A stretch of DNA of 64,000 nucleotides from Psococerastis gibbosa (lineage: Eukaryota; Arthropoda; Insecta; Psocodea; Psocidae). The DNA lies in the NCBI GenBank assembly GCA_963971405.1, contig OZ020485.1, positions 28,415,921 through 28,479,920 on the forward strand, given 5' to 3'. Positions 35,500 through 62,458 of the stretch are shown one piece after another. The notes beneath the pieces are model-generated. The model did no database searches and was not told the DNA's origin. It worked only from the letters and a program-made list of their open reading frames with translations. Position 1 is the first letter of the stretch. Every line of letters starts with the position of its first letter. The translations under genes were made by a program, and so were the position numbers.

Positions 35500-36695
35500 A
35501 ACAACATGACAGTAGGTACTATGCGTGGAACATTAGGCCACAACAAAGTAACTTACAATAAAAAGACGCCAGATGGGCGAAAGGGCGATGTGCAAGACTG
35601 TGGCAACCACCGACCTATAAAACTGCACTGCCATGCAATGAGGTGGATGGAAAGGGTGGTTGAGAGAAGACTCAGAGTTCTAATAAATGAGACCATCTCC
35701 AAAAACCAACTAGGATTCATGCCAGGTCGAGGAACTACAGATGGAATATACGACACATTGCAAGGACTCTGCTAGAAAAACATCGAGAAAAGAAAAAACC
35801 TGTTCATTGTGTTCGTGGACGTGGAAAAAGCCTATGATAGAATACCGAGAAGTTTAATCTGGGATGTGTTGGAAGAGAGACGAGTTCCGCAAAGCTATAT
35901 AAGGCTAATAAAGAATATGTACGAGTGCGTAGTGCGGCAGGGGTCGGTTACACCTTCCCAGTAACTTATGGGTTGCATCAGGGGTCAACCTTGAACCGCT
36001 GTTGTTCGTTCTCATAATGGACGTAGTGACCAGGCAGATGCAAGGGCAAGCGCCAGAAAGCCTTCTCTTCGTTGATGATATCCTCCTGGTAGGAGACTCG
36101 CGAGGAGATGTCGAGAGTACTCTCAGACTGTGGGTGGAAACGGTGGAGCGCCAGGGGCTTAAAGTGAATCGCAAGAAAACAGAGTACATGGAATGCATAA
36201 GCCAGGAACCTGGATCGATAAAAGTAGATAACCAAAACCTAGAGAAGGCCAAGACATTCAAATATCTACGAGCAACGTTACGCGAGAATGGCGGCTGTGA
36301 AGACGATGTAAAAGTACGGGTAACCTCAGGTTGGGCCAAGTGGCGAGATATGGCGGAGATCTTGAAGGATAGGAGAATGCCGAAAAATTCAAATCAAATT
36401 CCGCATATACGTACAAGCAAGTGGTGAGACCGTGTATGACCTACCGAGCGGAGTGCTGGCCATTGCGGAGGAGAAAGAGCAATTGCTGCATGTGGCTGGG
36501 ATACGCATGTTGCGTTAATATCTGGGTTACAAATTAACAGGCAGGAGGAGAAACGAGGGCATCCGGGCGGAGATGCAAGTAGCACCGATCACCGATAAAG
36601 TCAGGGAACGAAGACTGGCGTGGTGGGGCCATACGTTAAGAAGAGAAGATGGACACCTGCAACAACGTGTAAGGGACTGCAAGGTAGAGGGCCCA
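35500..36695 (+). pseudogene. Broken LINE reverse transcriptase, relic 1
   Basis: Pieces of a non-LTR reverse transcriptase occur in order but in shifting frames with stops: KGDVQDCGNHRPIKL and NQLGFMPGRGTTDGIYDTL (35570-35770), [19 protein letters not shown] (35800-35880), the catalytic box as LLFVDDILLVGD (36065-36100, the usual FADD reads FVDD), KTFKYL, then a C-terminal TYRAECWPL (36435-36460) and VRERRLAWWGHTLRREDG-like sequence (36600-36660). The order matches RTE-like or related LINEs. It encoded the enzyme that copies element RNA into the genome and is dead here through multiple frameshifts. It stops abruptly at repeat R4. Confidence 0.8.
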
Positions 36696-47332: not shown

Positions 47333-47338
47333 CAAAGC
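47333..47338 (+). repeat. Polinton target site duplication, left
   Basis: CAAAGC, identical to 62453-62458. Six base pairs is the standard Polinton duplication. Confidence 0.95.
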
Positions 47339-47360
47339 AGTAGTATAGAAAGGGGGGTTC

Positions 47361-47800
47361 TGGGACTTATCCCACCCCCCGTCGAGCTATCCCATCTATC
47401 CCACCCCGTCGTGCTATCCCCCGCGGGTGGTCTATCTATTTTTGCGTGTTATCCCTCGTGGGCGGTCTGAGGTGCTGGGACTTATCCCACCCCCCCGTCG
47501 AGCTATCCCATCTACCCCTCGTGGATGGTCTGAGGTTCTGGCGCTTATCCCCCCCCCGTCGAGACCCGTGGGTGGTCTTTCTATGGCACTATGATTGTTT
47601 TTTTTTTTTTTTTTTTTTTTTTTTGTATAATTACTAATTTGTGAGACACAGAGTTATATTTTGATTTTTTTTTTATTTTTTTAATGGTGTTAATTGAATT
47701 AAAACATTTCTTTCTTCTTCTTTCTTCTTCGTGGGTGGTCTTTGTACCCCGCCGTGCTTATCCCGTTGTCTATCTATCTCTGTACCAGGTGGGTGGTCTA
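47361..47800 (+). repeat. Terminal GTGGGTGGTC / TATCCC motif cluster
   Basis: The motif GTGGGTGGTC or a one-base variant occurs about six times (near 47424, 47460, 47522, 47568, 47731, 47789), commonly alternating with GACTTATCCCACCCCCCGTCGAGCTATCCC-type sequence. It also occurs once at 60485-60494 (inverted) next to the polymerase promoter block. A protein-binding role is possible but only inferred. Confidence 0.7.
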
Positions 47801-47859
47801 TGACGCACCCCCCCCCCTCCCCGTACAGCGTACATCTAGAATGTTCCAAATGTGTCGTT

Positions 47860-47912
47860 ACAAAAGGCATCGCCTTGGGTTGAGGAGCTTAGTTGAAGCC
47901 AAACCTTCATTC
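47860..47912 (+). promoter_or_regulatory. Shared 53-bp upstream block of the TIR gene, left
   Basis: From ACAAAAGGCATCGCCTTGGG to AACCTTCATTC. It is identical to 61884-61936 and matches 60428-60480, upstream of the polymerase gene, at 51 of 53 positions. It contains the small inverted repeat AAGGCATCGCCTT. It ends 49 bases before the start codon; a TATAAG sequence follows at 47934-47939. Confidence 0.75.
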
Positions 47913-47961
47913 AAGACTCAAGTAATACCACTTTATAAGTAAAATTGTATAATCTTACAAC

Positions 47962-48267
47962 ATGACATCTCTATTCAATAAAGTTAATGCCATCAACCAA
48001 GTAGCCGGGCCTACCATACCAATGCGAAAACTAGTGATTGGAGTTAAATACCTAATATTGAAAATAGTGCAAATCGAAAAAACAGAATATGGACCAGCTG
48101 TAAAAGTCATACTGCGAGGATTGGAAAAAGAAGTCGTGGAATGTTTTGTGCCTCAACAATATCTGCCAGCCTTTCAACAAAGTGAAGTTACTCCAGGAGC
48201 TGAGATGTATCTTATCGTTTCAAGCCATCGGGGAAAAAATAGTGTCAACCTACAGATCATAGAATGA
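47962..48267 (+). CDS. TIR-encoded 101-aa protein, left copy
   Basis: A 101-residue protein encoded wholly inside the terminal repeat, so the element has two identical copies (the other is at 61529-61834, minus strand). It starts MTSLFNKVNAINQ, carries PTIPMRKLVIG, then a beta-rich middle (KYLILKIVQIEKTEYGPAVK) and ends in LQIIE. There is no signal peptide or membrane segment. The alternating hydrophobic/charged pattern and size would suit a small OB-fold-like nucleic-acid-binding protein, and I recall similar small arthropod proteins, but this is inference. The 53-bp shared block and a TATA-like TATAAG lie upstream; AATATATG-rich sequence follows. Double dosage and the polymerase-type promoter suggest an early, abundant replication factor. 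Confidence 0.8.
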   Translation: MTSLFNKVNAINQVAGPTIPMRKLVIGVKYLILKIVQIEKTEYGPAVKVILRGLEKEVVECFVPQQYLPAFQQSEVTPGAEMYLIVSSHRGKNSVNLQIIE

Positions 48268-48540
48268 ATATTTCATGATGTATTATTATTGTAAACTACA
48301 GAAATAATGTAAATATATGAATAATTTCTATATATATTTTGTTCTTGTTTTATTAATTTCATAACTAGTTTTAAGCTTACAGTTAGATGATGATGAATAT
48401 TAAAAACTAATGTTTGAAAGAAACAAGCTATTGCTTCAGTCATAATCGAGTACTTGAACTGTGAAGGGTTATCATAATCATAGACTATGAAATGATGTAA
48501 ATCAAATAATTAAACGAGTACATTAGCTAATTAATTTTAA

Positions 48541-49360
48541 TAAATCTATCCGAAGCATAGGTTTATGGGAAGTATTGATTTGGTAAATAGTTAACCGTGT
48601 GCAGGTTCAAACCTGTTGTGAATCACCAGGTGCATATAACTCTGTACAGCCGTCTAATGGTTCAGACAAACAACACATTAATAAATCTACCCCTCGCGGA
48701 CAGTCCATTGTAAGCTAATGTGATTTTTGTTTTCGTAAATCTATCCAACACTTATATTGAAGGGAAGTATTGATTTGGTAAACAGAGTGCAGGTTCAAAC
48801 CTGTTGTGAATCACCAGGTGCATATAACTCTGTACAGCCGTCTAATGGTTCAAACAAACAAGCCATTAATAAATCTACCCCTCGCTGACAGTCCATTGTA
48901 AGCTAAAGTGATTTTTGTTTTCGTAAATCTATCCAACACTTAGGTTGAAGGGAAGTATTGATTTGGTAAACAAATAACAGGGTGCAGGTTCAAACCTGTT
49001 GTGAATCACCAGGTGCATATACTCTGTACAGCCATCTAATGGTTCAAACAAACAAGCCATTAATAAATCTACCCCTCGCTGACAGTCCATTGTAAGCTAA
49101 AGTGATTTTTGTTTTCGTAGATCTATCCAACACTTAGGTTGAAGGGAAGTATTGATTTGGTAAACAGAGTGCAGGTTCAAACCTGTTGTGAATCACCAGG
49201 TGCATATAACTCAGTACACCCATCACACCAGGTGGTCCATTGTAAGCTAAGTGATTTTACAAATGGTGCTTACCCCCCCCCCCCCCCCTCCGCACCGTAC
49301 AAACACCTTCCCCTCGCCGACAGTCCATTGTAAGCTAAAGTAATTTTTGTTTTTGCATCA
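48541..49360 (+). repeat. About 190-bp subrepeats in the left TIR, 4 units
   Basis: Units begin at 48541, 48736, 48924 and 49118 with TAAATCTATCC or TAGATCTATCC. Each holds GGGAAGTATTGATTTGGTAA, GTGCAGGTTCAAACCTGTTG, AATCACCAGGTGCATATA and, in most units, CAGTCCATTGTAAGCTAA. The fourth unit is interrupted by a C tract (49268-49282). The GGTTCAAACC block equals a tRNA B-box-like sequence and can form a 5-bp stem with a 6-base loop, like a T arm. Confidence 0.85.
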
Positions 49361-49381
49361 GTTGCAATCGGTCGTTAGAAA

Positions 49382-50083
49382 ATGAAGGGTGTCTTTACCA
49401 CATATTATCCGCTTCGTGATGGACAAAGTGTTATTGTTGGATTACAATTCAAAACATCAGAATTCGAAGTATACGTCGTAGTTGTTGATAAAGATCAGGA
49501 AATTGCATTCAATATGATTGAATGGGAGTTCTGGTGTGCAACATTACCATTATTTCGATTATATCTCCGTAAGAAAACAGTGTGCTACAACGGAAATATA
49601 CTATGGACACCTAATTTCATCAATACAAACCTGACGATGATGTTAACGAATGATAATGAATTGGAAATGAAGTCTCCATCATCACACATTAAGCTATCTA
49701 GAGTAAATATTGAGAACATACAAGCATTGAAAGCTATTCTTCATATTGTATGCTGTGAGTTGGAGGAGAAGAAGATGCAGGCTAACTTCCACTTAAAAAA
49801 TATCTTGAAAGACGTATACATGGACTTGGAAACAGATGACGTTTCAATGGAAGCTTTTTTACAGTTTGTGCAATCACCAACTCCAATAGTAGCAACTATC
49901 GAGGATGTTCGTTGTAAACTAGTGTCGAAGAAGTATCGAAATCAATCAAATCGTATATATTTAGAAATTATAACCATCTATGAAAATGAATTGTGCTCTG
50001 TGATACTTAAGCACTGGTTGGAGCGACCTCAAGTCAGTATGAACCAGACTGTTGAACATGATGAAACCGCTGGGAATAGTTGA
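49382..50083 (+). CDS. ORF A, Polinton protein of unknown function, 233 aa
   Basis: Open frame of 233 residues starting MKGVFTTYYPLRDGQS. I do not recognise a family. It has no signal peptide and no clear membrane segment; composition is mixed, with a hydrophobic first 70 residues (YVVVVDKDQEIAFNMIEWEF) and a charged C-terminus. The first 45 bases lie within the left terminal repeat, so the right repeat carries a broken copy of its start (60528-60573). The 3' end overlaps ORF B by 26 bases in another frame. It is the first non-repeat gene on the left and shares direction with ORF B, which suggests joint expression. It is uninterrupted in an element whose other genes are intact, supporting it as real. 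Confidence 0.7.
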   Translation: MKGVFTTYYPLRDGQSVIVGLQFKTSEFEVYVVVVDKDQEIAFNMIEWEFWCATLPLFRLYLRKKTVCYNGNILWTPNFINTNLTMMLTNDNELEMKSPSSHIKLSRVNIENIQALKAILHIVCCELEEKKMQANFHLKNILKDVYMDLETDDVSMEAFLQFVQSPTPIVATIEDVRCKLVSKKYRNQSNRIYLEIITIYENELCSVILKHWLERPQVSMNQTVEHDETAGNS

Positions 50084-50555
50084 GTTTCAAGGTTTCAAAG
50101 ATAATGAAAACAATTTCATCATCAAAGAATTGGCTATGGGCCCTGCATACGATGACCAGTATGAGCATTGGTTTTTCCGTCCACCCTTTCCATTCGCCAA
50201 TCTTACAGCTCAAGTAAAAAGCAGCAACACATGGAGCACAAGTAATCTCCATAAACTTCGTTGGGAAGAGGGGAACGTGAACTACATTTGGCTAAAGAAC
50301 ATTTTACTTGAGTTTGCTAATCAGTATACTAGAATTGCTACTAAAGGAGGAGAGAAGCAAGTATGGCTTGCAGGAATACTAGAACGTGTTGTATATGACT
50401 TGGACTCTGTGGTTCTGGCAAGTTTTCAGAAGTTACCACCTGTAGAAGCTAAACAATGCATTCACACGGGAAACTGCGCGTTGATAAATTTGAAGAAACT
50501 ACAGAAATGGTTTCAAGATGTCTATTGTTTCATTGATCATGATGAGGTTGATTAA
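50058..50555 (+). CDS. ORF B, conserved unknown protein, 165 aa
   Basis: Starts at the ATG at 50058 (MMKPLGIVEFQGF), overlapping ORF A by 26 bases in a different frame. Landmarks are NNFIIKELAMG (about 18-28), EHWFFRPPFPFANL (about 35-48), LRWEEGNVNYIWLKNILLEF (about 67-86), KQVWLAGILE and a late C...H...C.L segment (IHTGNCALINLKKLQKW). The pattern F-I-V-K-E-L-A, then HWFF-PPFPF, then a C/H-containing end is one I recall from uncharacterised arthropod and Polinton-associated proteins, possibly nuclease-like; that assignment is inference. A poly(A) signal AATAAA overlaps the stop region (50556-50561), and the integrase gene ends convergently just beyond. Confidence 0.75.
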   Translation: MMKPLGIVEFQGFKDNENNFIIKELAMGPAYDDQYEHWFFRPPFPFANLTAQVKSSNTWSTSNLHKLRWEEGNVNYIWLKNILLEFANQYTRIATKGGEKQVWLAGILERVVYDLDSVVLASFQKLPPVEAKQCIHTGNCALINLKKLQKWFQDVYCFIDHDEVD

Positions 50556-50561
50556 AATAAA
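50556..50561 (+). terminator. Poly(A) signal after ORF B
   Basis: AATAAA immediately following the ORF B stop codon. Confidence 0.55.
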
Positions 50562-50568
50562 GTTATAT

Positions 50569-51483
50569 TTATAAAATATCAGTTTTATTAATCCATGTAG
50601 GTTTCGGGAAACCAAGCCATTTCACATATAATTTATCCTTAGACTTTTTCAAAACTTTCTCCACCAAATATACATCTGGATGCTTGGTTTTCTGCAACTC
50701 TTCCATATACCATGAGCCCAAAATGGGTTCGCCATCCATAGCCTCAAGGAGATAGGTGGTAGGTCGAGTAGGTTGTACTAGACGCACGCGAAATACTTCT
50801 GTAGACCAGTTCGGTTGGTAACCCTTCTCAAATAAGGCTTTTTGCTTGCTGATTCTGACAGGATCACCCTCTTGAAATTTCTGTTTGATAGTACCTTTCA
50901 CATCAACAGCATTATACATGGATAATAATTTTGCTTCATGTTCTTCTCGCACATCAGCAGGACACATGTTAATCGTCCTATGCTTGGTAGTGTTATATTG
51001 TTGCACTAGACGAGGTAGTAAATGCAACCACTTATAATTTCCCTGCAAGCTGAATTCCTTCCACATTCGATTTTTCAGAGTGCGATTCCAGCGTTCAATA
51101 ATTGAAGCTTTCAGTGTAGAATACGTAGCATAATGATTAATGCTATATTGTTTTAGAAGACTTTTCATTCGCATGTTGAAAAATTCTAGTCCCATATCTG
51201 ACTGGAGGTGAGCAGGAGCTTGTGGAGCTCTATTGAGAATTTTTATGAAAGCTTCAGTAACATTCTTCATAGATTTAGTTTTTACTGCTTCTGCATAACC
51301 GAATTTTGTGAATGCATTTATCACTGTTAGAATATATTTATATCCTTTATTAATCCTTGAATATGGAATCATTTCCACTAGATCTGCTTGCCATAAATCA
51401 TGCATTCCTTTAAGAGTCACATGACGTCGAGGATAATTCCGTCGAGCAGGCCGATGAATTTCATCAACCAAAGCTTGCTTCAT
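50569..51483 (-). CDS. INT: Polinton integrase (retroviral type, chromodomain)
   Basis: A 304-residue DDE integrase that inserts the element's DNA ends, producing the 6-bp target duplication seen at the flanks. Catalytic acidic residues are D34 (WQADLVEM), D96 (LQSDMGLEF) and E130 (IIERWNRTLK), spacing D-61-D-33-E. The N-terminal HRPARRNYPRRHV stretch is typical of Polinton integrases. The C-terminus (about 270-304) is a chromodomain: VYLVEKVLKK, then YVKWLGFPKPTWINK. Chromodomains can direct integration to particular chromatin, as known for chromoviral integrases. The start ATG overlaps the stop of the 232-aa frame upstream (ATGA), so the two are probably translated from one transcript or by reinitiation. 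All catalytic residues are present. Confidence 0.95.
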   Translation of the reverse strand: MKQALVDEIHRPARRNYPRRHVTLKGMHDLWQADLVEMIPYSRINKGYKYILTVINAFTKFGYAEAVKTKSMKNVTEAFIKILNRAPQAPAHLQSDMGLEFFNMRMKSLLKQYSINHYATYSTLKASIIERWNRTLKNRMWKEFSLQGNYKWLHLLPRLVQQYNTTKHRTINMCPADVREEHEAKLLSMYNAVDVKGTIKQKFQEGDPVRISKQKALFEKGYQPNWSTEVFRVRLVQPTRPTTYLLEAMDGEPILGSWYMEELQKTKHPDVYLVEKVLKKSKDKLYVKWLGFPKPTWINKTDIL

Positions 51484-52178
51484 TGAATAATATTTGCTTC
51501 TCGCAATTCGCTTATAATATCAATGATTTCGTTTTGATGACTTGTATGTCCTGCAGCATGTGATGCATTAAGTAAGCGTAATCGTTCTACCAGTTCATTT
51601 GGATCGTTCCAATACCGGTATTCACCACCAGATTTTATCCCAAATAGCTGTTTAATAATCTTTTGATATTTATAACGTTGACTGCCCCTCAGACGACCAC
51701 TAGTGGTTAAATGAGCTCCAGTTCTTTCCAGCATATCTTTATAAGCTTGTAAATCTTCCGGAGTATAGTTTTCAGGCTTGTTCAAGGTTAATAATTCATA
51801 TAAGCCCAATGTACCTTGCCATGTTTTATCTTCGATTGTGATTGAATCATCTTCATCATTGAAATGTACAGGGTATGAACCCAGCCTAAATATACCTTCA
51901 TTACTTCGTGTTAGTCCATAGTATGTATCAATGGTTTTCCTATTATAATGATCAGGTATAAATAAGTCTAAATATTTGCTAACTCCGGGTTTATTTATTG
52001 TTTTTTCTGGTGCTGTCTGTTTGTTCAACTCAATTAATTCTTGTAGTGGTTTCGAGACAGGTTTTAACTTTCGCTCTTGCTGAGCAGCCTCATTGTGTAG
52101 ATCACGTTTAAGATTAAGGTACTTTTGCTGCAGAGCTTTGCGTATGTTGACAATATTCTTGATAACTTTAGTATCCAT
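51480..52178 (-). CDS. Conserved Polinton protein of unknown function, 232 aa
   Basis: Lies directly upstream of the integrase on the same strand and overlaps it by four bases (ATGA). N-terminal third is lysine-rich and helical (residues 1-60), with probable coiled-coil character. A central block KTWQGTLGLYELLTLNKPEN, then YTPEDLQAYKDML, and a C-terminal YWNDPNELVERLRLLNASHA with NEIIDIISELREANII are conserved-looking; I recall this arrangement in uncharacterised proteins of many animal Polintons. No enzymatic motif is visible. The late HAAGHTSHQN string could be mistaken for an integrase zinc-binding part, but the cysteines are missing. Role unknown; position suggests an integration or virion accessory role. 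Confidence 0.85.
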   Translation of the reverse strand: MDTKVIKNIVNIRKALQQKYLNLKRDLHNEAAQQERKLKPVSKPLQELIELNKQTAPEKTINKPGVSKYLDLFIPDHYNRKTIDTYYGLTRSNEGIFRLGSYPVHFNDEDDSITIEDKTWQGTLGLYELLTLNKPENYTPEDLQAYKDMLERTGAHLTTSGRLRGSQRYKYQKIIKQLFGIKSGGEYRYWNDPNELVERLRLLNASHAAGHTSHQNEIIDIISELREANIIQ

Positions 52179-52225
52179 ATCTACCTCACCGAGTCACAGT
52201 TGAATGAATAATGATGAGTTGAGTG

Positions 52226-52921
52226 TTAAGCAGAGTTATTTATATCTTTGAAGTAGTGATCGAATCCCTGCCGATATCGTCCATCGTTTAATCCAAAATC
52301 TTTTGCAATAACTAGGAATGCATGTGACTCTTTCCATGCTTCGGCGCAGAGTTTCATGAATGTCGCTAAATCCATATCCCCCGCAACATGGTCTCTATAC
52401 ACATTCTTTATATTAAGTAAATCCTGTTTGAATAGCACGATAAAATTCAAATTGTCTCGCAACAAATGTTTTGGAATAGAGGTATAGGTCTGAGTGAGAT
52501 AGAAGCAATCAATCCCTTTATGACGACCCATACAGTAGACATTTCGAATTTCCGTTTGTGATTCACATGAAACATCGTCGAATATTAGCACAGAGTTAGG
52601 TTTGATGTCAGAGAGTGGTGTAACCGAATCGCTTGACCCCGTAAAAGTCATCCCACGAATAGAATTTACATTTTTCTCAAGCTGCTGGTATTTATGTTGA
52701 AACAATGTTTTGCAGAATAAGTATACATTTTCAAATCGTAGCCCAAACGGATGATATACCATACTGCATAGTAGGCTTGTTTTACCACAACCTGATGGGC
52801 CGCAGATTGCACCACGAATCGATCCGGGGAGTAAAGGTCCATGCTTTCTATTACTCCGTACATCTTCATCTTCTTGACTTAGAATCACACTGAACTTGTG
52901 TCTCTGTGGTACGAGCTTCAT
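52226..52921 (-). CDS. ATP: DNA-packaging-type ATPase (FtsK/HerA-like, Polinton ATP)
   Basis: A 231-residue P-loop ATPase. Walker A is GPSGCGKTS at residues 41-49 and Walker B is SVLIFDDV at about 110-117; a downstream CMGRHKGID and YLTQTYTSIP region (about 130-148) carries the sensor-type polar residues. Polinton ATPases are related to genome-packaging ATPases of adenovirus-like and NCLDV lineages and are thought to pump DNA into the capsid. The length is normal for the family. The gene is divergently arranged with the PLA2-protein gene; the 65-bp gap between their starts contains TATAAATA (52941-52948). Confidence 0.95.
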   Translation of the reverse strand: MKLVPQRHKFSVILSQEDEDVRSNRKHGPLLPGSIRGAICGPSGCGKTSLLCSMVYHPFGLRFENVYLFCKTLFQHKYQQLEKNVNSIRGMTFTGSSDSVTPLSDIKPNSVLIFDDVSCESQTEIRNVYCMGRHKGIDCFYLTQTYTSIPKHLLRDNLNFIVLFKQDLLNIKNVYRDHVAGDMDLATFMKLCAEAWKESHAFLVIAKDFGLNDGRYRQGFDHYFKDINNSA

Positions 52922-52940
52922 TATATGACTGATAAAAAGT

Positions 52941-52948
52941 TATAAATA
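52941..52948 (+). promoter_or_regulatory. TATA box of the capsid-gene cluster
   Basis: TATAAATA between the divergent ATPase and PLA2-protein genes. Transcription about 30 bases downstream would start near 52971, which skips the ATG at 52960 and favours the one at 52987. Confidence 0.6.
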
Positions 52949-52986
52949 CCACTGTATATATGTATTTTACTCATTCACATTTGAGA

Positions 52987-53712
52987 ATGTCTATGGTGAA
53001 CAGCATAATTAATAAGTTACCATTTGAAGCACATATCCCCGGCTATCAATTCTGCGGACCAGGCACCAAGTTAGAAAAACGATTAATTCGAGGAGATCGA
53101 GGGAGAAACAAACTTGATCAAGCTTGCCGTGAACACGATATAGCTTATTCGCAATCATCAGATATAACTAATCGACACGTAGCGGATATAAAATTAGCAG
53201 ATCAAGCGTGGCAACGTGTTAAGGCAAAAGATTCATCTATAGGGGAAAAAATTGTCGCTTTAGGTGTGACAGCTGCAATGAAAGTTAAACGAAAGCTGGG
53301 ATTTGGGCTGAAGCGGAAAGTATCCTTCAGATCACTATTGACTTCAGCGAAGAAAGCGATAAAGCTTGCAAAACCACCCACTGTGGCGGATACAATCAAG
53401 ATTGCTTATAAATCTGTGAAGAAATCAAAGGGAAATAAGGTGAAACTTCCCCGAATCATACCTATTGCCAAGACAGGTGGTATATTACCACTTATCCCGA
53501 TATTTGCGGGGCTTTCTGCACTAGGCGCTCTCTCTGGCGGTGCTGCAGGAATTACATCAGCTGTTAATAAAGTCCATAGTGCACAGAAAAAGTATGAAGA
53601 AATGAAACGTCATAATCAAACTATGGAATCTATAGCTATTGGGAAAGGCTTGTATTTAGCGCCACATAAGAAGGGGAGTGGACTCTACTTGCATCCTTAT
53701 TCAAAAAACTAA
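52987..53712 (+). CDS. Virion protein with phospholipase A2 domain
   Basis: A 241-residue product from the ATG at 52987; an ATG 27 bases upstream is in frame but probably lies before the transcription start (TATA at 52941). Residues 17-65 form a PLA2 domain of the parvovirus VP1 type: calcium-loop YQFCGPGT (20-27) and catalytic EHDIAY (H50, D51, Y54). PLA2 hydrolyses the sn-2 ester of phospholipids; in parvoviruses it breaches the endosome during entry. The rest is very basic (KSKGNKVKLP region), then hydrophobic glycine/alanine-rich (LIPIFAGLSALGALSGGAAG, about 165-190), then a GLYLAPHKKGSGLYLHPY end, resembling small DNA-associated virion core proteins of adenovirus-like lineages. It precedes the protease by 5 bases. 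Confidence 0.88.
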   Translation: MSMVNSIINKLPFEAHIPGYQFCGPGTKLEKRLIRGDRGRNKLDQACREHDIAYSQSSDITNRHVADIKLADQAWQRVKAKDSSIGEKIVALGVTAAMKVKRKLGFGLKRKVSFRSLLTSAKKAIKLAKPPTVADTIKIAYKSVKKSKGNKVKLPRIIPIAKTGGILPLIPIFAGLSALGALSGGAAGITSAVNKVHSAQKKYEEMKRHNQTMESIAIGKGLYLAPHKKGSGLYLHPYSKN

Positions 53713-53717
53713 GTTGC

Positions 53718-54098
53718 ATGCCTCGGAACCGTCCAATGACTAATGTGGAACTTATAAAATTCACCGCTAACGTTCCTCATTTTCGCGGTGTGTTCATGCG
53801 AAATGCATTGCCTCGCATACCATGGAAACATAATGAAGCTGGAATAATTAATTTAGATGATGCTATAGGACCTGGTACACATTGGGTTGCTTACCGCAAG
53901 ATTAGAAACCGAGTTATATACTTCGATAGCTTCGGGGACTTACAACCACCATTGGAATTGAAACAATATTTCCACAACTGTACAATATACTACAACCATC
54001 AATCGTATCAAACCTATTCAACATCAAATTGTGGGCAGTTATGTTTAAAATTTCTCTACATGAAAGATCCATTTTCCATACTATTAAAAGTTATATAA
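53718..54098 (+). CDS. PRO: Adenain-like cysteine protease (Polinton PRO)
   Basis: A 126-residue protease related to adenovirus adenain and the ULP1 clan. Catalytic residues: H55 in GTHWVAY, D70 in YFDSFG, Q98 (in HQSYQTYS, oxyanion) and C105 in SNCGQLC. Adenain-like enzymes mature capsid proteins in the particle. The frame is shorter than adenovirus adenain but typical for Polintons. It follows the PLA2 gene by 5 bases and is followed by a TATA box and the minor capsid gene. All key residues are present. Confidence 0.93.
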   Translation: MPRNRPMTNVELIKFTANVPHFRGVFMRNALPRIPWKHNEAGIINLDDAIGPGTHWVAYRKIRNRVIYFDSFGDLQPPLELKQYFHNCTIYYNHQSYQTYSTSNCGQLCLKFLYMKDPFSILLKVI

Positions 54099-54099
54099 G
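54091..54099 (+). promoter_or_regulatory. TATA box before the minor capsid gene
   Basis: TTATATAAG overlapping the protease stop. A start site about 30 bases on falls near 54121, just before the ATG at 54127. Confidence 0.6.
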
Positions 54100-54126
54100 T
54101 TATGAATATGTTTGATTTATTGCATT

Positions 54127-54822
54127 ATGTCGCTAGCATTGACATTGAGCGGTAACGACTCATTGCTAAGTAGCAACTACTTCCCACCGATTGTACTTGA
54201 GGGTGCATGGGAAATCGGCTTGCTTGACCTCGAAACATACAATTCAATTCCTAATCTCTCAAATGGTGTCGTTAAAATTGTAAACAATTCAATTCCTCCG
54301 AAGACTAGAATAATTGAAATACCAACTGGATCCTATGAATTGTTAGATGTAGTCAAGTATATTAATCAAGTGTGGGGTTCTGAAATCATACGGATACGCG
54401 CAAATCGGAACACCCTACATTCGGAAGTTATGATAATACATGAAGACTTTGAAATTGAAGTAAATGAAGAACTAGGATACCTGCTAGGCTTTGGTTATGA
54501 TGTGATGACATTTTTCCCTGGGGAAAGATATGAATCACCACATAGCATTAAAATATCCAAAGTCAATGCAATTCGAATTAATTGTAATATTACAAGTGGA
54601 TCATATTTGAATGGTAGACCATCACATGCCGTTCATGAATTTTATCCTAATGTACCACCTGGCTATCGGATTGTTGAAGCACCAAATACAATCATCTACC
54701 ATGCTATAAATACGAATGTACTTACAAGTCTAACGTTAGACATTGTCGATCAAGACAACGAGACGGTTAATTTCCGAGGAGAAACTATTACTTTACGTCT
54801 TCATTTACGTAAACAACAATGA
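54127..54822 (+). CDS. Minor capsid protein (penton-like, Polinton PX)
   Basis: A 231-residue protein beginning MSLALTLSGNDSLL at the first ATG after the TATA box at 54091. The C-terminal third has the hallmark Polinton minor capsid sequence: YPNVPPGYRIVEAP (about 182-195), TLDIVDQDN and VNFRGETITLRLHL at the end. These single jelly-roll proteins occupy the capsid vertices. Length is normal. The stop overlaps the start of a 57-residue frame (ATGA). Confidence 0.9.
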   Translation: MSLALTLSGNDSLLSSNYFPPIVLEGAWEIGLLDLETYNSIPNLSNGVVKIVNNSIPPKTRIIEIPTGSYELLDVVKYINQVWGSEIIRIRANRNTLHSEVMIIHEDFEIEVNEELGYLLGFGYDVMTFFPGERYESPHSIKISKVNAIRINCNITSGSYLNGRPSHAVHEFYPNVPPGYRIVEAPNTIIYHAINTNVLTSLTLDIVDQDNETVNFRGETITLRLHLRKQQ

Positions 54823-54992
54823 GAGTATATATTGCACAGCGGTATGCACCATACATCATTCCACATCGGACTTCCACGCAAGCACGTTATATTCGGCTCA
54901 CTAACGAGAACAAGCAATATTTACAATCAATAGGTTTTAAAATCCACGATGACATCAATACTAAACGTGAAGGAGTCCATTCTCGTGGATGA
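54819..54992 (+). CDS. Small 57-aa frame between capsid genes
   Basis: Starts at the ATG that overlaps the minor capsid stop (ATGA at 54819-54822) and ends at 54992, overlapping the first 44 bases of the major capsid gene. The product is small and basic (MRVYIAQRYAPYIIPHRTS start, then RYIRLTNENKQYLQSIGF). No hydrophobic segment. The stop-start coupling and tight fit in the capsid operon argue that it is translated; its function is unknown. It could be a minor virion component or a leftover upstream frame that tunes capsid expression. Confidence 0.5.
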   Translation: MRVYIAQRYAPYIIPHRTSTQARYIRLTNENKQYLQSIGFKIHDDINTKREGVHSRG

Positions 54993-56163
54993 GAGTTTAA
55001 CGCGTTATGAATACCATAAGATTGCACCCTATTCATCAAGTAGTCTAAATAATAATGATGAAATTCGCATACCAATCCATCAACAAGATATACTTACTCT
55101 ACCATGTGAAAGCCGACTGTATATTGAAGGGGTGCTAGAAAAAGGTGTGACAACAATTGCTTATGAAGATGAAGACGGGCTTAGCGCTAATGCTATGGCA
55201 CACTTATTCTCTGAAATACGCTATGAACTCAATGGGATAACTGTTGATCATGTGCGAAACCCTGGTATTGCTACTCAGCTTAAAGGGTTAGTATCATTCA
55301 CCGCTCAAGATGCACAACGTCTTACAAACAGCTCATTTTATACCGATGCCAATAAAACAGAGAGGAACTTTAATTTTTGCGTGCCATTGAAAATGCTGTT
55401 TGGATTTTGCGAGGATTTTCGACGAGTTCTACTCAACGTTAAACAAGAACTTGTGTTAGTGCGATCACGTAGCAATCTGAATGCCATGCGGGATCTTTCA
55501 AACACTAAAGACTTAACATTGAAACTAACTACTGTGCTGTGGGAAATACCTTTCGTAAGTGTGAGTGATAGCCAACGTCTTGAATTGCTGAGTGTACTAA
55601 GGGAAAACGTGCGGTTGCCTATTGGCTTTCGAACATGGCAACTGTATGAATATCCAAACATTCCCTCATCAACATCATCAATTAATTGGCCTGTGCGCAT
55701 GATTTCTTCAAGTGAAAAACCACGGTTTGCTATTATTGGCTTCCAAGCTGCCCGAGCGGATGATATTACGAAAGACGCTAGTGCCTTCGATCAATGTGCT
55801 ATACAACAAATGCAACTATTCCTCGGCTCAGAATGCTATCCATACCATCCGCTACAGGCGAACTTCAACAAAAAGGCTGTCGCTGTGTTGTATGAAAATT
55901 TTGTCAATTTCCGAAAACACTACTACATGCAGGATGAAGCAGCCCCAAACGTTTCCCGTAGTGAATTTCTAAATTCATACCCGATTTGGATTATTGACTG
56001 CTCGCGACAGAATGAGCTCATTAAAACAGGTGGTGTTGATATACGTTTGGAAATTCATGGCCAAACTAATTTCCCTAATAAAATGAATGCCTACTGTCTA
56101 CTCATCAGCGACTGCTTATATGAATATGTACCTTTAACTGGTATTGTACATCAACTATTGTAA
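54949..56163 (+). CDS. Major capsid protein (double jelly-roll, Polinton PY)
   Basis: A 404-residue protein forming the hexon-like shell. Characteristic stretches: MAHLFSEIRYELNGI (about 84-98), LFGFCEDFRRVLLNVKQELV (about 149-168), GFRTWQLYEYPNIP (about 224-237), KPRFAIIGFQAAR (about 256-268), YPIWIIDCSRQNE (about 344-356) and LISDCLYEYVPLTG near the end. These match the double jelly-roll capsid protein of Polintons and adintoviruses as I know it. It begins at 54949 in the order minor capsid, small frame, major capsid. Full length and no stops. Confidence 0.93.
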   Translation: MTSILNVKESILVDESLTRYEYHKIAPYSSSSLNNNDEIRIPIHQQDILTLPCESRLYIEGVLEKGVTTIAYEDEDGLSANAMAHLFSEIRYELNGITVDHVRNPGIATQLKGLVSFTAQDAQRLTNSSFYTDANKTERNFNFCVPLKMLFGFCEDFRRVLLNVKQELVLVRSRSNLNAMRDLSNTKDLTLKLTTVLWEIPFVSVSDSQRLELLSVLRENVRLPIGFRTWQLYEYPNIPSSTSSINWPVRMISSSEKPRFAIIGFQAARADDITKDASAFDQCAIQQMQLFLGSECYPYHPLQANFNKKAVAVLYENFVNFRKHYYMQDEAAPNVSRSEFLNSYPIWIIDCSRQNELIKTGGVDIRLEIHGQTNFPNKMNAYCLLISDCLYEYVPLTGIVHQLL

Positions 56164-56165
56164 AT

Positions 56166-56443
56166 GAATGTAAACCATTTTATGATATAATAATTTTATA
56201 ATACACATATTTTAAAAGAAATCAATGTCTTTTCATATAATCACTTAAAACAAGCTTTTAAGCCTAAGACTTATCTATAATACAATAATGACCATGAGCT
56301 AAACGAATGTAAACCATTTTATGATATACAAATTTTATAATACACATATTTTAAAAGAAATCAATGTCTTTACATACAATCACTTAAAACAAACTTTTAA
56401 ACCTAAGACATATCTATAATGCGATAATGACCATGAGCTAAAC
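56166..56443. repeat. 139-bp tandem duplication at the polymerase 3' end
   Basis: Copies 56166-56304 and 56305-56443, both starting GAATGTAAACCATTTTATGA. The second contains the real 3' end of the polymerase gene; the first repeats its last 13 codons (reads SLAHGHYCIIDKS on the minus strand) as an unused extra copy. Confidence 0.9.
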
Positions 56444-59400
56444 TATCAATTCCATTACGACACACATACCGTTTATCATCATAAGGACTAAGAGTGACTT
56501 TTTGCTGTTTAATTGTAAAAAGCTTATGATCTCTACTTTGAATACGGAACATTGGTTTACGTGAGTCTTTTGCTATGCAAGGCTTAAATAAGGTATTGTA
56601 ATAGTCTTGATGGTTAATATGATGTTTAAGGGTTGAACGAACTATACCTTTGCCCACTTTCTTCTCCTTTCCCTCCTCTAAAAGGGAATACAATTTTGGG
56701 CGTAAAGCAACACATTGTAAAATGTGAGATTGAGCATTTTCATCTTTGAACGTTCCCACTTTCTTTTTATTTTCAATATTGTATAAGAGATGGTTCGGAG
56801 GATATACTGAGTTATCAAATAAATGGGGATATGGTTTTAAATCAGTGTACAAATCATCACTCTCAACCTCATAAACGAGCGAATCTGTATCTGTTAAAAT
56901 CAGTGCAGCTTTATCACCATACATTTGTTTTACAAAGTTATAATGAAATTCATACATAACTACCTTGGATAGTTCGAGAACGGTTAGGCCAATAAATATT
57001 GGCTTGTTTAGCAAAATATTAGTTTTTTTTGACCGGACTGCTATTAAATCGTTGGAAAAAATCTTAAAATCTTTAAATGCAGGGGATGAGATAAGTTTAC
57101 GAGCTCGTTTGGCAGTGTTAACTAACTCTAATTTTGCGTGATTTCTAACATTCTCCATTGTCTTCCCATACATACTATTAATTTTCAATTTATAAAAATC
57201 CTTCTCGAAATCATTACAAGCTAATTTCCGTTTTTCTGTGTTAAAATCGATAAAGGGTCGCATCCAAGCGCTTTGCTTAAAAGCTAAAATTTTATGTATA
57301 CATTTTAATTTTAATCCCAATTCTAAACATTGCTTCAAATTTCGATAATGTATTATATAGTTGTGTTTATCGTTTAAGTTGGGAATAAGCTTTGAGATGT
57401 TGGATGTTAAAGATATATCATTTTCAGCGAGAAATTCCTTACAATAGGGGGAAATCATGTCTGATGTTACAACACAATGTTCAGCTGCTAATGGGTATTC
57501 ATTATGTAAATCATGTAATTTTTGTGGATATTCCAAGTCCACCTGTAATATGAACCCATCATCGCCCTCATCAGGTGCGAGCATTACATTAAAGTTTTTG
57601 ATTTCTTCCTCCTCCATCCAGCGAAACCCACTAATAGGTAAAAATTGACGCATCGCATGTCCGTATAAGTTAGTGCAATCCCAATATACTATAAATTTGG
57701 ATGGCTTATTTGAGTCAAATTTTTTTAAGTATTTATTGTTGCTTTCCGCAAATCTTTTTGAAATCATACTTATACCCCCGCGAATCCCAGCCTCACAAAA
57801 CAAATACATATCAGGGTCGCTCAATAGCTCAAGTTCTACTCCTGTCATTTTCAGACAGCTCTGAAGAGCTAGCCCTGGTGCTGTGTACATGTGACAAATT
57901 TCGAGGTTATCGTTTTCAAAACATAAGGCTCTGAAGGCTTCAAAAACATCGCAAAGGAGAAGGGTGTCTGTTAATACATACAAGTCTTGGTATTCTCCTA
58001 AATTCTTTATACCAAAAGCATTCCACACCTTTTGAGCATGTTCATATTTTTCTTGTGAAATCCCCTCTTGAGTTAATTGACTAAAAAATGCATCGATTGG
58101 AGGTAAGTGTTCCTCATTAAATTTTGACTCGTGCGTTATATATTCATAGGGGAAGACACCCTTCCTCAACATCAAGTCTAATTTTTCACCCTCAAAACAT
58201 GTTTTCATAATTTTAAATTTATTTTTATCCGCATCAACAAGATTTTTAACTAATGAATCTAATGAGGAGGCCATAAATTGATAAGTGTCTAAAAAGCGTA
58301 ACTCTCCAATACTAAAGGCTATATATTCCTCCATAGTTTTAGCTATACAAGTAATATTCATATTTTTTAGTTTCCCAACCCCTTCCATGATAAGATGGCC
58401 ATCATAACGTTTTAAGTTATGCATAAAAACGGGGATATGTTTTGGAGTTCGAAAATTGCTCATATTACAGACATTATGTAATGCTTGTCTATATTTCCCC
58501 GTTATATGGCAGTGGTCTATTACACGATCAGTTCCTAGTGGTTTTTGACAAACATTACAAATGACAGAGTTTTTAAAATTTTCTCTATCCTCGTCAGTCA
58601 TAATTACTGCTTTAATATTTTTATAAATTTTTAAAATTTCATCCTTAACATTTAATAATGATTTCAAAAACACATCAACAGCATTGGCTCCCCTGTAAAC
58701 TACCGGTTCTTTAAACTTATTCCCATTGATATCTACAACAACATAACAAAACCCTGATGGTATATGTGCAGATAATTTTTCAGTGTTACAAATAGTCCCT
58801 TCAACGGGACTGAGAATGCTCTCGAAATCGGCATATATTCTATATGCTACAGGGATCATATATTGTGGCTTATCAAATTTCATAGTGCTTTTCTCCTTAA
58901 TTGGAAATGTGGTTTTTTGAGGATCATGTCTTGAGCAGAGTGGCTTATGTTCATGTAAGCGTTCAGCACTACTAAAGGCGTGTATGCACCAACGGCAATA
59001 AAACTTTTGTTCCTTATGTTTAGTGATTGAGAAATTAAGTTTGTTGAAATTTTTAATAAGACAATAATGTGAATTTTCGTCTTCCGTTATGTAAAGCAGA
59101 TCCACCTGCTTATTATAATGGTGACTTTGTGATAAATATAATGGGTACAGTCTGTGATCATAACCAAACACATTTACTCCAATATTATTATTTTTTTCAA
59201 ATTTTGAAATGACTTGCAAAGATACTGGGTAAGTTATACCACTCATATCTAACTCTTTCTCATACTTTTTATAATTATAAACTCGCTCAGCGTGTATCTT
59301 TACTGGATGCAAGTATGCTAAAATTGACCATATAAAACATTTGAGATCGTCGTTTTTAATATTGATTACTGCTTTAGTGTTATATATTTTTTGGGGTAAA

Positions 59401-60383
59401 GGGATGTAACTACTACCACTGCATGGATTATATTCAGCAATAAAAATAACAAAACGTTTTAAAGATTTCAACACCCACCCGCTTCCCATTGCTTGAAATT
59501 TATCTATTTTTATTAAAATTTGTTCAATCATTTGTTGATATGTTATCGTGGAGTCATCATTGAGGAGAAGTTGTTCGTTTTTAGCACGAAACCATGCTTC
59601 AGTATAGTTTTTATTATTGTCGGGTCCGCGTTCAAATTTAATGTGTAAGGCTACATACCATTTAATCGCTTTAAAAAGTTTAATGTTTTCAGTTGTAATA
59701 GAATCAACCTCACCTTCCATATTATTTAAATATACAACGGGATCATGTATGGTTATGTTTTTATAATTGTATTGTTTTACTACACCATCTAGAGCTATAG
59801 ATGTTTTGCATAAAAAGTTCTCCTCGTTGGATAGTGCTCCCCCGCTCATAATTGTGCAATTATTCTTATGATTAGTAAAATCTTCCCTCATAAACAATTT
59901 CTTGCAATTCAAACAATTAATAATATGTATGCTTAATATGTGGACTTTCAAACTATACTTCCGAGCAAAAGGGACCGAACAGAATTCACAAATATATTTA
60001 CACTCAAGGGTTTCAACAGATACAGGATTCTCATACTTACACGAAAAGATAGATGAACATTCTTTACACAGAACTGTAAGTGGACTGGAGTTGTTGATTT
60101 TGCCCCCGCATGCCTTGCAGTCCTCTCCATTCCCAGCAGATGTCAGTTTTGGGCGAGTTTGTACAATTTCCATCCCGTGATTTGCTGATGTATGCCGCTG
60201 CAATATATGATGAGATAGGTCCTCTCTGCATGTGAATGTGGCTTTACATTTTTTGCATGGTATAATACTAACTCCATGTTTGTTTATGACATGTCTTTTT
60301 AAATTGCAATTTAGTGTGAAACTCACAGCACATATTCTACACACATATTCCCTCGCGTTCAGTTTCCTTTTCTTCGATTCCAT
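56403..60383 (-). CDS. POLB: Protein-primed family B DNA polymerase (Polinton pPolB)
   Basis: A full-length 1326-residue polymerase that copies the element from a protein primer. N-terminus: C2H2 zinc fingers at C15/C18/H31/H36 and C43/C46/H59/H64, a C-x2-C...C-x2-C ribbon (C89-C109), another C2H2-like unit from C132. A CxxC...H...C unit (FYCRWCIHAF) and a VCNVCQ/DHCHITGKYR HNH-like motif precede the exonuclease. Exonuclease I is YADFES (D519, E521), Exo II HNLKRYDGHL. Polymerase A is WDCTNLYG (D902), B is KINSMYGKT (1067-1075), C is DTDS (D1165, D1167). The 53-bp block shared with the TIR gene lies upstream of the start. All catalytic motifs are intact. Confidence 0.97.
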   Translation of the reverse strand: MESKKRKLNAREYVCRICAVSFTLNCNLKRHVINKHGVSIIPCKKCKATFTCREDLSHHILQRHTSANHGMEIVQTRPKLTSAGNGEDCKACGGKINNSSPLTVLCKECSSIFSCKYENPVSVETLECKYICEFCSVPFARKYSLKVHILSIHIINCLNCKKLFMREDFTNHKNNCTIMSGGALSNEENFLCKTSIALDGVVKQYNYKNITIHDPVVYLNNMEGEVDSITTENIKLFKAIKWYVALHIKFERGPDNNKNYTEAWFRAKNEQLLLNDDSTITYQQMIEQILIKIDKFQAMGSGWVLKSLKRFVIFIAEYNPCSGSSYIPLPQKIYNTKAVINIKNDDLKCFIWSILAYLHPVKIHAERVYNYKKYEKELDMSGITYPVSLQVISKFEKNNNIGVNVFGYDHRLYPLYLSQSHHYNKQVDLLYITEDENSHYCLIKNFNKLNFSITKHKEQKFYCRWCIHAFSSAERLHEHKPLCSRHDPQKTTFPIKEKSTMKFDKPQYMIPVAYRIYADFESILSPVEGTICNTEKLSAHIPSGFCYVVVDINGNKFKEPVVYRGANAVDVFLKSLLNVKDEILKIYKNIKAVIMTDEDRENFKNSVICNVCQKPLGTDRVIDHCHITGKYRQALHNVCNMSNFRTPKHIPVFMHNLKRYDGHLIMEGVGKLKNMNITCIAKTMEEYIAFSIGELRFLDTYQFMASSLDSLVKNLVDADKNKFKIMKTCFEGEKLDLMLRKGVFPYEYITHESKFNEEHLPPIDAFFSQLTQEGISQEKYEHAQKVWNAFGIKNLGEYQDLYVLTDTLLLCDVFEAFRALCFENDNLEICHMYTAPGLALQSCLKMTGVELELLSDPDMYLFCEAGIRGGISMISKRFAESNNKYLKKFDSNKPSKFIVYWDCTNLYGHAMRQFLPISGFRWMEEEEIKNFNVMLAPDEGDDGFILQVDLEYPQKLHDLHNEYPLAAEHCVVTSDMISPYCKEFLAENDISLTSNISKLIPNLNDKHNYIIHYRNLKQCLELGLKLKCIHKILAFKQSAWMRPFIDFNTEKRKLACNDFEKDFYKLKINSMYGKTMENVRNHAKLELVNTAKRARKLISSPAFKDFKIFSNDLIAVRSKKTNILLNKPIFIGLTVLELSKVVMYEFHYNFVKQMYGDKAALILTDTDSLVYEVESDDLYTDLKPYPHLFDNSVYPPNHLLYNIENKKKVGTFKDENAQSHILQCVALRPKLYSLLEEGKEKKVGKGIVRSTLKHHINHQDYYNTLFKPCIAKDSRKPMFRIQSRDHKLFTIKQQKVTLSPYDDKRYVCRNGIDSLAHGHYRIIDMS

Positions 60384-60427
60384 GGTGTACGATTACACAA
60401 ATTCACTACACTGAAGTGGTATTACGC

Positions 60428-60480
60428 GAATGAAGGTTCGGTTTCAACTAAGCTCCTCAACCCAAGGCGATGCCTTTTGT
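60428..60480 (-). promoter_or_regulatory. Shared 53-bp upstream block of the polymerase gene
   Basis: Reads, on the minus strand, ACAAAAGGCATCGCCTTGGG to AACCTTCATTC; 51 of 53 bases equal the block in front of the TIR gene. It ends 44 bases before the polymerase ATG, nearly the same distance as for the TIR gene. No TATA box at the corresponding site; an inverted GTGGGTGGTC lies just upstream. Confidence 0.75.
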
Positions 60481-60527
60481 AGCGACGACCACCCACGAAG
60501 GATAGACGGTAAGGGTACAGGGATAGA

Positions 60528-60573
60528 TTGTCCATCACGAAGCGGATAATATGTTGTTAAGACACCATTCATT
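60528..60573 (-). pseudogene. Broken 5' copy of ORF A
   Basis: On the minus strand from 60573 the sequence repeats the first 15 codons of ORF A (MNGVLTTYYPL...). A one-base insertion after codon 11 gives a stop. After this the sequence switches to the GTGGGTGGTC and 53-bp promoter block of the polymerase gene. Confidence 0.8.
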
Positions 60574-60599
60574 TTCTAACGATCGATTGCAACTAATGC

Positions 60600-61260
60600 A
60601 AAAACAAAAATCACTTTAGCTTACAATGGACTGTCAGCGAGGGGTAGACTTATTAATGGCTTGTTTGTTTGAGCCATAAGACGGCTGTACAGAGTTATAT
60701 GCACCTGGTGATTCACAACAGGTTTGAACCTGCACTCTGTTTACCAAATCAATACTTCCCTTCAACCTAAGTGTTGGATGCACCTGGTGATTCACAACAG
60801 GTTTGAACCTGCACCCTGTTATTTGTTTACCAAATCAATACTTCCCTTCAACCTAAGTGTTGGATAGATTTACGAAAACAAAAATCACTTTAGCTTACAA
60901 TGGACTGTCAGCGAGGGGTAGATTTATTAATGGCTTGTTTGTTTGAACCATTAGACGGCTGTACAGAGTTATATGCACCTGGTGATTCACAACAGGTTTG
61001 AACCTGCACTCTGTTTACCAAATCAATACTTCCCTTCAATATAAGTGTTGGATAGATTTACGAAAACAAAAATCACATTAGCTTACAATGGACTGTCCGC
61101 GAGGGGTAGATTTATTAATGTGTTGTTTGTCTGAACCATTAGACGGCTGTACAGAGTTATATGCACCTGGTGATTCACAACAGGTTTGAACCTGCACACG
61201 GTTAACTATTTACCAAATCAATACTTCCCATAAACCTATGCTTCGGATAGATTTATTAAA
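60600..61260 (-). repeat. About 190-bp subrepeats in the right TIR
   Basis: Inverted counterparts of 48541-49360; unit edges (GGATAGATTTA) at about 61246, 61051 and 60863, with a truncated junction at 60773 where GTTGGATGCACCTGG skips half a unit. Confidence 0.8.
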
Positions 61261-61528
61261 ATTAATTAGCTAATGTACTCGTTTAATTATTTGATTTACA
61301 TCATTTCATAGTCTATGATTATGATAACCCTTCACAGTTCAAGTACTCGATTATGACTGAAGCAATAGCTTGTTTCTTTCAAACATTAGTTTTTAATATT
61401 CATCATCATCTAACTGTAAGCTTAAAACTAGTTATGAAATTAATAAAACAAGAACAAAATATATATAGAAATTATTCATATATTTACATTATTTCTGTAG
61501 TTTACAATAATAATACATCATGAAATAT

Positions 61529-61834
61529 TCATTCTATGATCTGTAGGTTGACACTATTTTTTCCCCGATGGCTTGAAACGATAAGATACATCTCAGCTCC
61601 TGGAGTAACTTCACTTTGTTGAAAGGCTGGCAGATATTGTTGAGGCACAAAACATTCCACGACTTCTTTTTCCAATCCTCGCAGTATGACTTTTACAGCT
61701 GGTCCATATTCTGTTTTTTCGATTTGCACTATTTTCAATATTAGGTATTTAACTCCAATCACTAGTTTTCGCATTGGTATGGTAGGCCCGGCTACTTGGT
61801 TGATGGCATTAACTTTATTGAATAGAGATGTCAT
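61529..61834 (-). CDS. TIR-encoded 101-aa protein, right copy
   Basis: Product identical over all 101 residues to that at 47962-48267; same upstream block and spacing. As both copies lie in the terminal repeats they are kept alike by replication through the repeats. See the left copy for what can be said of its structure. Function unknown. Confidence 0.8.
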   Translation of the reverse strand: MTSLFNKVNAINQVAGPTIPMRKLVIGVKYLILKIVQIEKTEYGPAVKVILRGLEKEVVECFVPQQYLPAFQQSEVTPGAEMYLIVSSHRGKNSVNLQIIE

Positions 61835-61883
61835 GTTGTAAGATTATACAATTTTACTTATAAAGTGGTATTACTTGAGTCTT

Positions 61884-61936
61884 GAATGAAGGTTTGGCTT
61901 CAACTAAGCTCCTCAACCCAAGGCGATGCCTTTTGT
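61884..61936 (-). promoter_or_regulatory. Shared 53-bp upstream block of the TIR gene, right
   Basis: Identical to 47860-47912 in the inverse orientation. Confidence 0.75.
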
Positions 61937-62452
61937 AACGACACATTTGGAACATTCTAGATGTACGCTGTACGGGGAGGGGGGGGGGTGCGTCATAGAC
62001 CACCCACCTGGTACAGAGATAGATAGACAACGGGATAAGCACGGCGGGGTACAAAGACCACCCACGAAGAAGAAAGAAGAAGAAAGAAATGTTTTAATTC
62101 AATTAACACCATTAAAAAAATAAAAAAAAAAAAAATAAAATCAAAATATAACTCTGTGTCTCACAAATTAGTAATTATACAAAAAAAAAAAAAAAACAAT
62201 CATAGTGCCATAGAAAGACCACCCACGGGTCTCGACGGGGGGGATAAGCGCCAGAACCTCAGACCATCCACGAGGGGTAGATGGGATAGCTCGATGGGGG
62301 GTGGGATAAGTCCCAGCACCTCAGACCACCCACGAGGGATAACACGCAAAAATAGATAGACCACCCGCGGGGGATAGCACGACGGGGTGGGATAGATGGG
62401 ATAGCTCGACGGGGGGTGGGATAAGTCCCAGAACCCCCCTTTCTATACTACT

Positions 62453-62458
62453 CAAAGC
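62453..62458 (+). repeat. Polinton target site duplication, right
   Basis: CAAAGC, perfect copy of 47333-47338. Confidence 0.95.

Follow-up and report, generated by a model that had tools for sequence, protein, structure and literature searches.

The window analysed here (64,000 nucleotides of contig OZ020485.1 of the barklouse Psococerastis gibbosa, in whose numbering all positions without a contig label are given) contains a structurally complete Polinton/Maverick at 47339-62452; the host genome comprises 409 Mb in 68 contigs, with the window at C2:28415921-28479920. Its mitochondrial COX1 shares 99% identity with that of Psococerastis albimaculata and 98% with a further Psocidae entry, as expected of a barklouse from this family. 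We hold with high confidence that this element is an insect Polinton (an adintovirus-like provirus) which was recently inserted, and that it belongs to a recently multiplied family composed of two lineages, A and B. Wherever a structural test had an unambiguous outcome, the element conformed to the Polinton plan.

Element ends and terminal repeats

The element is flanked on both sides by caaagc, which lies immediately before AGTAGTATAG at the left end and immediately after CTATACTACT at the right end, and its inverted ends read AG...CT. The exact 6-bp duplication and these ends bear out an earlier sequence-only reading of this DNA, in which a complete, apparently intact Polinton with a perfect target duplication was claimed. 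The inverted repeats of about 2 kb described in that reading proved roughly right: their near-identical part spans about 1.66 kb, and an array of 188-bp units that differs in copy number between the two ends lies further in. Alignment of the outer arms revealed 2 substitutions and 4 indels; the repeats are near-identical on the outside, with divergence rising inward. The boundaries are as follows.

47333-47338, no strand: target site duplication, left copy, 6 bp (caaagc), read directly
47339-49018, plus strand: left terminal inverted repeat, near-identical outer part, from alignment
48541-49218, plus strand: tandem array of a 188-bp unit, 3.5 copies, within the left repeat
60778-61255, minus strand: tandem array of a 188-bp unit, 2.5 copies, within the right repeat
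60778-62452, minus strand: right terminal inverted repeat, near-identical outer part, from alignment
62453-62458, no strand: target site duplication, right copy, 6 bp (caaagc), read directly

A 17-mer of the element end occurs at 230 exact sites in the host genome and its reversed control at none, so the ends are no chance match. When the host flanks of the insertion were joined, their matches inside the window were confined to two short stretches.

Gene content

All named frames of the element lack internal stops. From left to right, the element carries the 101-, 233- and 165-amino-acid (aa) genes on the plus strand, followed by the integrase, 232-aa and ATPase genes on the minus strand; next come the phospholipase A2 (PLA2)-like, protease, putative minor capsid and major capsid genes on the plus strand, followed by the polymerase gene and a second 101-aa gene on the minus strand.

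47962-48267, plus strand: 101-aa gene in the left terminal repeat
49382-50083, plus strand: 233-aa gene, no assignment from profile or PDB searches
50058-50555, plus strand: 165-aa gene, a single database relative (33% identity)
50569-51483, minus strand: rve integrase, 304 aa (Pfam rve, 1.4e-10; D...D-33-E)
51480-52178, minus strand: 232-aa gene adjoining the integrase gene, open reading frame
52226-52921, minus strand: A32-like packaging ATPase, 231 aa (Pox_A32, 3.8e-9; Walker A and B)
52960-53712, plus strand: PLA2-like protein, 250 aa (Phospholip_A2_4, 5.7e-14; CGPGT calcium loop and HD)
53718-54098, plus strand: adenain-like cysteine protease, 126 aa (H, D, Q and C motifs by eye; Peptidase_C5 below threshold)
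54127-54822, plus strand: putative minor capsid protein, 231 aa, from position only
54949-56163, plus strand: double jelly-roll major capsid protein, 404 aa (DJR-like_dom PF21738, E=1.1e-90)
56403-60383, minus strand: family B DNA polymerase, protein-primed type by motifs, 1326 aa (motifs, length and place)
61529-61834, minus strand: 101-aa gene in the right terminal repeat, its protein identical to that of the left copy

The core genes with catalytic residues claimed earlier could be confirmed by profile and open frame for the integrase, the ATPase and the major capsid protein, whereas the polymerase and the protease owe their names to motifs and the minor capsid protein to its position alone. 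The PLA2-like gene, the 101-aa repeat genes, three further genes and the size of the family had gone unmentioned. The motif patterns of the ATPase, integrase, PLA2, protease and polymerase were read by eye and then located by script; in the polymerase they comprise the exonuclease, A, B and C motifs. The polymerase also contains N-terminal C2H2 motifs and a sub-threshold Endonuclease_7-like segment (Pfam), and Pfam gave no match for an OTU-like domain. The Peptidase_C5 match of the protease (E=0.0047) falls below the Pfam cut-off, and the C-terminus of the integrase looks chromo-like by eye, with no Pfam chromodomain match at E<=1.

The major capsid protein had 1263 homologues in a sequence search (the best at 66%), while a PDB search with the capsid profile gave no match. 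In PDB searches the ATPase (E of at least 0.04) and the 232-aa protein (E of at least 0.2) returned only weak, unrelated-looking matches, and no relevant match to the putative minor capsid protein was found in Pfam or PDB searches. No relative was confirmed when viral contigs were scanned with the capsid protein, with an 18-row alignment of capsids or with the C-terminal half of the polymerase.

Age of the insertion

The window copy and a copy on another chromosome (C1:32370406) differ by 0 substitutions in 3,801 nucleotides (nt) of the capsid region. Together with the 2 substitutions in the outer repeat arms, this supports the earlier claim of a young insertion. Across 27 capsid-region rows of the same length, which were drawn from the 30 best-scoring of 103 loci and are biased toward close copies, the median pairwise difference was 11 substitutions (gaps not counted), and seven copies besides that of the window had an identical neighbour. 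Left out of this divergence count were L014, which is the window's own copy, and L017, L024 and L032, in which the neighbouring sequence is disrupted.

Terminal repeats of the same copy, compared over an 840-nt block in the 14 of 21 copies that were usable, differed at 0 to 11 positions (0 in the window copy). In 19 of 28 tests, no terminal repeat was closer than the one at the opposite end of the same copy. Some sibling copies have more diverged or mixed terminal repeats, which indicates that these repeats are partly mosaic. At an insect mutation rate near 3e-9 per site per generation, 2 differences in 1.66 kb would correspond to about 200,000 generations; this figure was not used in judging the age.

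Two lineages and their insertions

A search of the genome with the ATPase protein yielded 147 matches, 126 of full length and 21 partial, the latter including one 47% relative. The full-length copies fall into lineage A (84 copies at 98-100%, including that of the window; stops in 3) and lineage B (42 copies at 94-96%; stops in none). For the major capsid gene, 103 of 878 candidates were scored, with 83 copies assigned to A (1 with a stop) and 20 to B (none with a stop), and a 40-base capsid tag of lineage A was found at 89 sites, its reversed control at none. For the polymerase, all 35 copies scored (of 1324 candidates) were full length and free of stops.

Ten large contigs carry 123 of the 126 full-length ATPase copies, spread in proportion to contig size (chi-square p=0.46). 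Target duplications were read in lineage A, in a random draw of 20 copies for which both ends were found in 17; exact 6-bp duplications with differing flanks were present in 15 of these 17. The possession of their own duplications and different flanks identifies these A copies as separate insertions. It is well supported by these sequence comparisons that the family multiplied very recently in the barklouse lineage, as two sister lineages, and the element of the window was most likely inserted through the family's own integrase. At C12:3805683-3838523 two A copies lie in inverted orientation, with their ATPase genes 17 kb apart.

Selection on the genes

The ratio of nonsynonymous to synonymous divergence (dN/dS) was estimated for each gene between the window copy and one B copy. 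The values were 0.111 for the ATPase, 0.125 for the integrase, 0.138 for the major capsid protein, 0.184 for the protease, 0.186 for the PLA2-like protein, 0.227 for the 232-aa gene, 0.235 for polymerase residues 83-783 and 0.470 for the putative minor capsid protein. Synonymous divergence (dS) between A and B was about 0.22-0.30, and the aligned B stretches are free of stops. Ratios of 0.11-0.19 at such a dS indicate that the capsid, protease, ATPase and PLA2-like genes were under selection before the burst of copying.

Divergence is uneven in the putative minor capsid gene (54127-54822, compared with L082): of the 60-codon windows, the four with first codons from 1 to 61 gave a dS of 0.38-0.52 and those beginning at codon 81 or later gave 0.10-0.17, which suggests recombination or fast change there. 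More amino-acid change between A and B was seen in the first part of this protein than in the last.

Interpretation of the intact family

On the reading that we favour, the element DNA would be copied as a linear molecule by its own protein-primed polymerase and would be inserted into the chromosome by the integrase, and the capsid gene set would be retained because it is the lineages with a particle stage that persist. The earlier suggestion that the element might be able to move or to form particles stands as far as recent mobility of the family is concerned (the 15 duplications among 17 copies); for present movement, and for particles, which the family may form to judge from dN/dS, the word "possibly" remains apt.

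The same copies might instead have been produced by a pure transposon moving inside germline nuclei only, its capsid genes being passengers kept by recent common descent. Low divergence between copies would by itself keep frames open, but the low dN/dS of the capsid, protease, ATPase and PLA2-like genes at the A-B distance makes this explanation improbable. It is hardly credible that part of the burst is an artefact of assembly or segmental duplication: some copies do show 0 substitutions between them over 3.8 kb, and the four ATPase-less elements tested lack target duplications (see below), yet the sampled A copies have different flanks and exact duplications of their own, and copy numbers are proportional to the size of the large contigs.

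Several observations weigh against the interpretation of the element as a recently inserted, intact provirus. The polymerase domain found no match in Pfam, even in half-length pieces, or in NCBIfam (C-terminal half), and in a comparison of the whole polymerase with PDB sequences the only matches were zinc-finger proteins. Among the sampled A copies, 2 of 17 lack a 6-bp duplication, and for 3 of 20 the second end, on the polymerase side, was not found in the fetched stretch. The partial ATPase matches (21 of 147) show that decay occurs in the family. Each dN/dS value comes from a single pair and reflects the past, and in codons 81-140 of the putative minor capsid gene dN (0.223) exceeds dS (0.167).

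Animal Polintons are possible living viruses, whose particles had not been observed as of the survey of PMC8097293, as excerpted. With dozens of near-identical copies and capsid genes under purifying selection, P. gibbosa is a good host in which to search for transcripts and particles.

ATPase-less and palindromic relatives

We examined 47 pairs of terminal repeats (34 obtained from the first 100 of the 230 end 17-mers and 13 through a 260-base repeat search). A full ATPase gene was present in 16 pairs, a fragment in 1 and none in 30, the last including one 47.7-kb pair that is probably two elements. One example of an ATPase-less pair sharing the Polinton ends is C2:26388616-26402681.

The one centre that was read, from the ATPase-less pair L085, is perfectly palindromic: its arms of 881 nt are separated by a single nucleotide. 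A 40-base tag of the arm was found at 438 genome sites (with at most 2 mismatches), its reversed control at none. The 35 scored polymerase copies comprise 18 in ATPase-bearing elements, 5 accompanied by an ATPase fragment and 11 beside a palindrome arm; for the remaining copy, the listing of the 40-base tag revealed an arm beside the polymerase. The notion that the ATPase-less elements are non-coding, for which the lack of a 60-aa frame in the L085 centre had spoken, was overturned by the polymerase search. The arm length of the palindromes would fit a terminal repeat, the polymerase gene and a spacer, which would leave little room for other genes.

Near an A copy that lacks a target duplication lies L071 (C13:14222673-14225873), a terminal-repeat end in which sequence of the palindrome arm is combined with inner repeat units, pieces of the terminal repeat and polymerase fragments at 76-87%. 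Its make-up indicates that some such elements are not intact.

Two explanations of these relatives come close to each other in merit. That they are palindromes which arose within the chromosomes, through fold-back or recombination where copies were already inserted, or a misassembly of identical repeats, we regard as falling only just short of probable. The 6-bp target duplication was found in none of the four ATPase-less elements tested, as against the 15 of 17 A copies, and misassembly is possible because a 208-base piece of the L085 arm was 100% identical in all 40 places scored (of 527 candidates). Against both origins stand the position of the centres, several of which lie near the midpoint of paired intact ends (3 of 8 palindromic pairs inside terminal-repeat pairs are within 70 bp of it), and the spacing between arms, which varies among loci.

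Alternatively, and more tentatively, the relatives could be snap-back genomes, in which the polymerase end is doubled as an inverted dimer, that were then copied and captured into chromosomes. A protein-primed polymerase that turns back on its own strand would generate an inverted dimer with two identical ends; we put this route at somewhat less than even odds. Besides the perfect palindrome of L085 and the abundance of arm sites, this route is favoured by (i) two uninterrupted polymerase genes facing each other about a common centre at three loci (C1:5878331/5885260, C1:25645554/25651439 and C2:41909704/41916464), (ii) a distance of exactly 456 bp, in 10 of 12 cases, between the polymerase stop and the start of the palindrome arm, (iii) the orientation of neighbours less than 4 kb apart among 100 listed exact arm sites, which form 24 convergent, 0 divergent and 3 same-strand pairs, and (iv) the distribution of arms, which lie in 18 of 22 ATPase-less pairs (those among the 30 that are on C1, C2, C3 and C12) and in 0 of 16 ATPase-bearing pairs. 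Against it stand the missing target duplications, the reading of a single centre, the 5 of 8 palindromic pairs that are off the midpoint by 184-2548 bp, and the 52 of 100 listed arm sites outside any convergent pair; these unpaired sites may have partners with mismatches, absent from the list of exact sites. Insertion without integrase is a further possible route.

It may be, at somewhat less than even odds, that the genome holds polymerase-only derivatives in numbers comparable to or above those of the intact family, many of them palindromic, as snap-back captures forming a Polinton satellite. Should the palindromic relatives prove real, we know of no earlier sign of snap-back (defective) Polinton genomes, and their existence would support a free linear stage, with protein-primed replication, of an animal Polinton. 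No report of snap-back or nonautonomous Polintons was found in the literature searched, the scope of which excluded most subscription journals.

Adeno-associated virus (AAV) is a parvovirus, and its replication is not protein-primed. Its snapback genomes, self-complementary subgenomes derived from one end of the linear genome, provide an analogy for the palindromic relatives in the excerpted account of PMC8235507; unlike these packaged molecules, the barklouse palindromes are chromosomal and retain the entire polymerase gene.

Comparison with known systems

The element of the window is ordinary in kind; what is unusual is how large and how young its family is, together with the palindromic relatives. 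The comparisons below are with excerpts of the sources cited. Two intact lineages in one genome, Sf Maverick 1 and 2, are described from Spodoptera cells (PMC5803895). They resemble the barklouse lineages in encoding a capsid-like protein that carries a PLA2 domain alongside INT, ATP, PRO and POLB, in a weak endonuclease VII-like match in POLB, and in their apparent intactness. Compared by description, the barklouse family differs in its 84 and 42 full-length ATPase copies, its terminal-repeat gene and its palindromic relatives.

Terminal inverted repeats, 6-bp target duplications, intronless genes and purifying selection are shared with vertebrate Mavericks (PMC8097293). The excerpted survey gives at most 38 intact copies per genome, in contrast to barklouse lineage A, in which, counted gene by gene, the ATPase is uninterrupted in 81 of 84 copies and the major capsid gene in 82 of the 83 scored. 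Cryptophytes are reported to hold over a thousand complete Polinton-like viruses (PMC12220804).

With adintoviruses (PMC11071296) the element shares an adenovirus-like capsid set and the occurrence of PolB together with an rve integrase; with respect to the chromodomain and OTU-like domain of the published description, Pfam gave a match to neither in the barklouse element.

Terminal-repeat gene, shared upstream block and neighbouring sequence

The 101-aa gene is uninterrupted in 34 of 39 terminal repeats, has a stop in 1 and is missing from 1; the remaining 3 repeats are incomplete for this gene, two of them at the end of a stretch. Its protein had no PDB match and nothing above the cut-off in PHROGs, NCBIfam or Pfam, and its single-sequence model (mean predicted local distance difference test score, pLDDT, of 47) was too poor for use.

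A 59-nt block lies upstream of both this gene and the polymerase gene:

47854-47912, plus strand: promoter-like block of 59 nt preceding the 101-aa gene, 56/59 match to the polymerase-side copy
60428-60486, minus strand: second copy of this block, preceding the polymerase gene at a similar distance

Of 39 terminal repeats, 30 contain the 36-nt core of the block unchanged, 8 contain it with one change and 1 lacks it. The block may represent a common promoter of the 101-aa and polymerase genes.

Elsewhere in the window, pieces of LINE (long interspersed nuclear element)-like retrotransposon frames, judged by eye, are located at 6609-7463 and 35479-36427.

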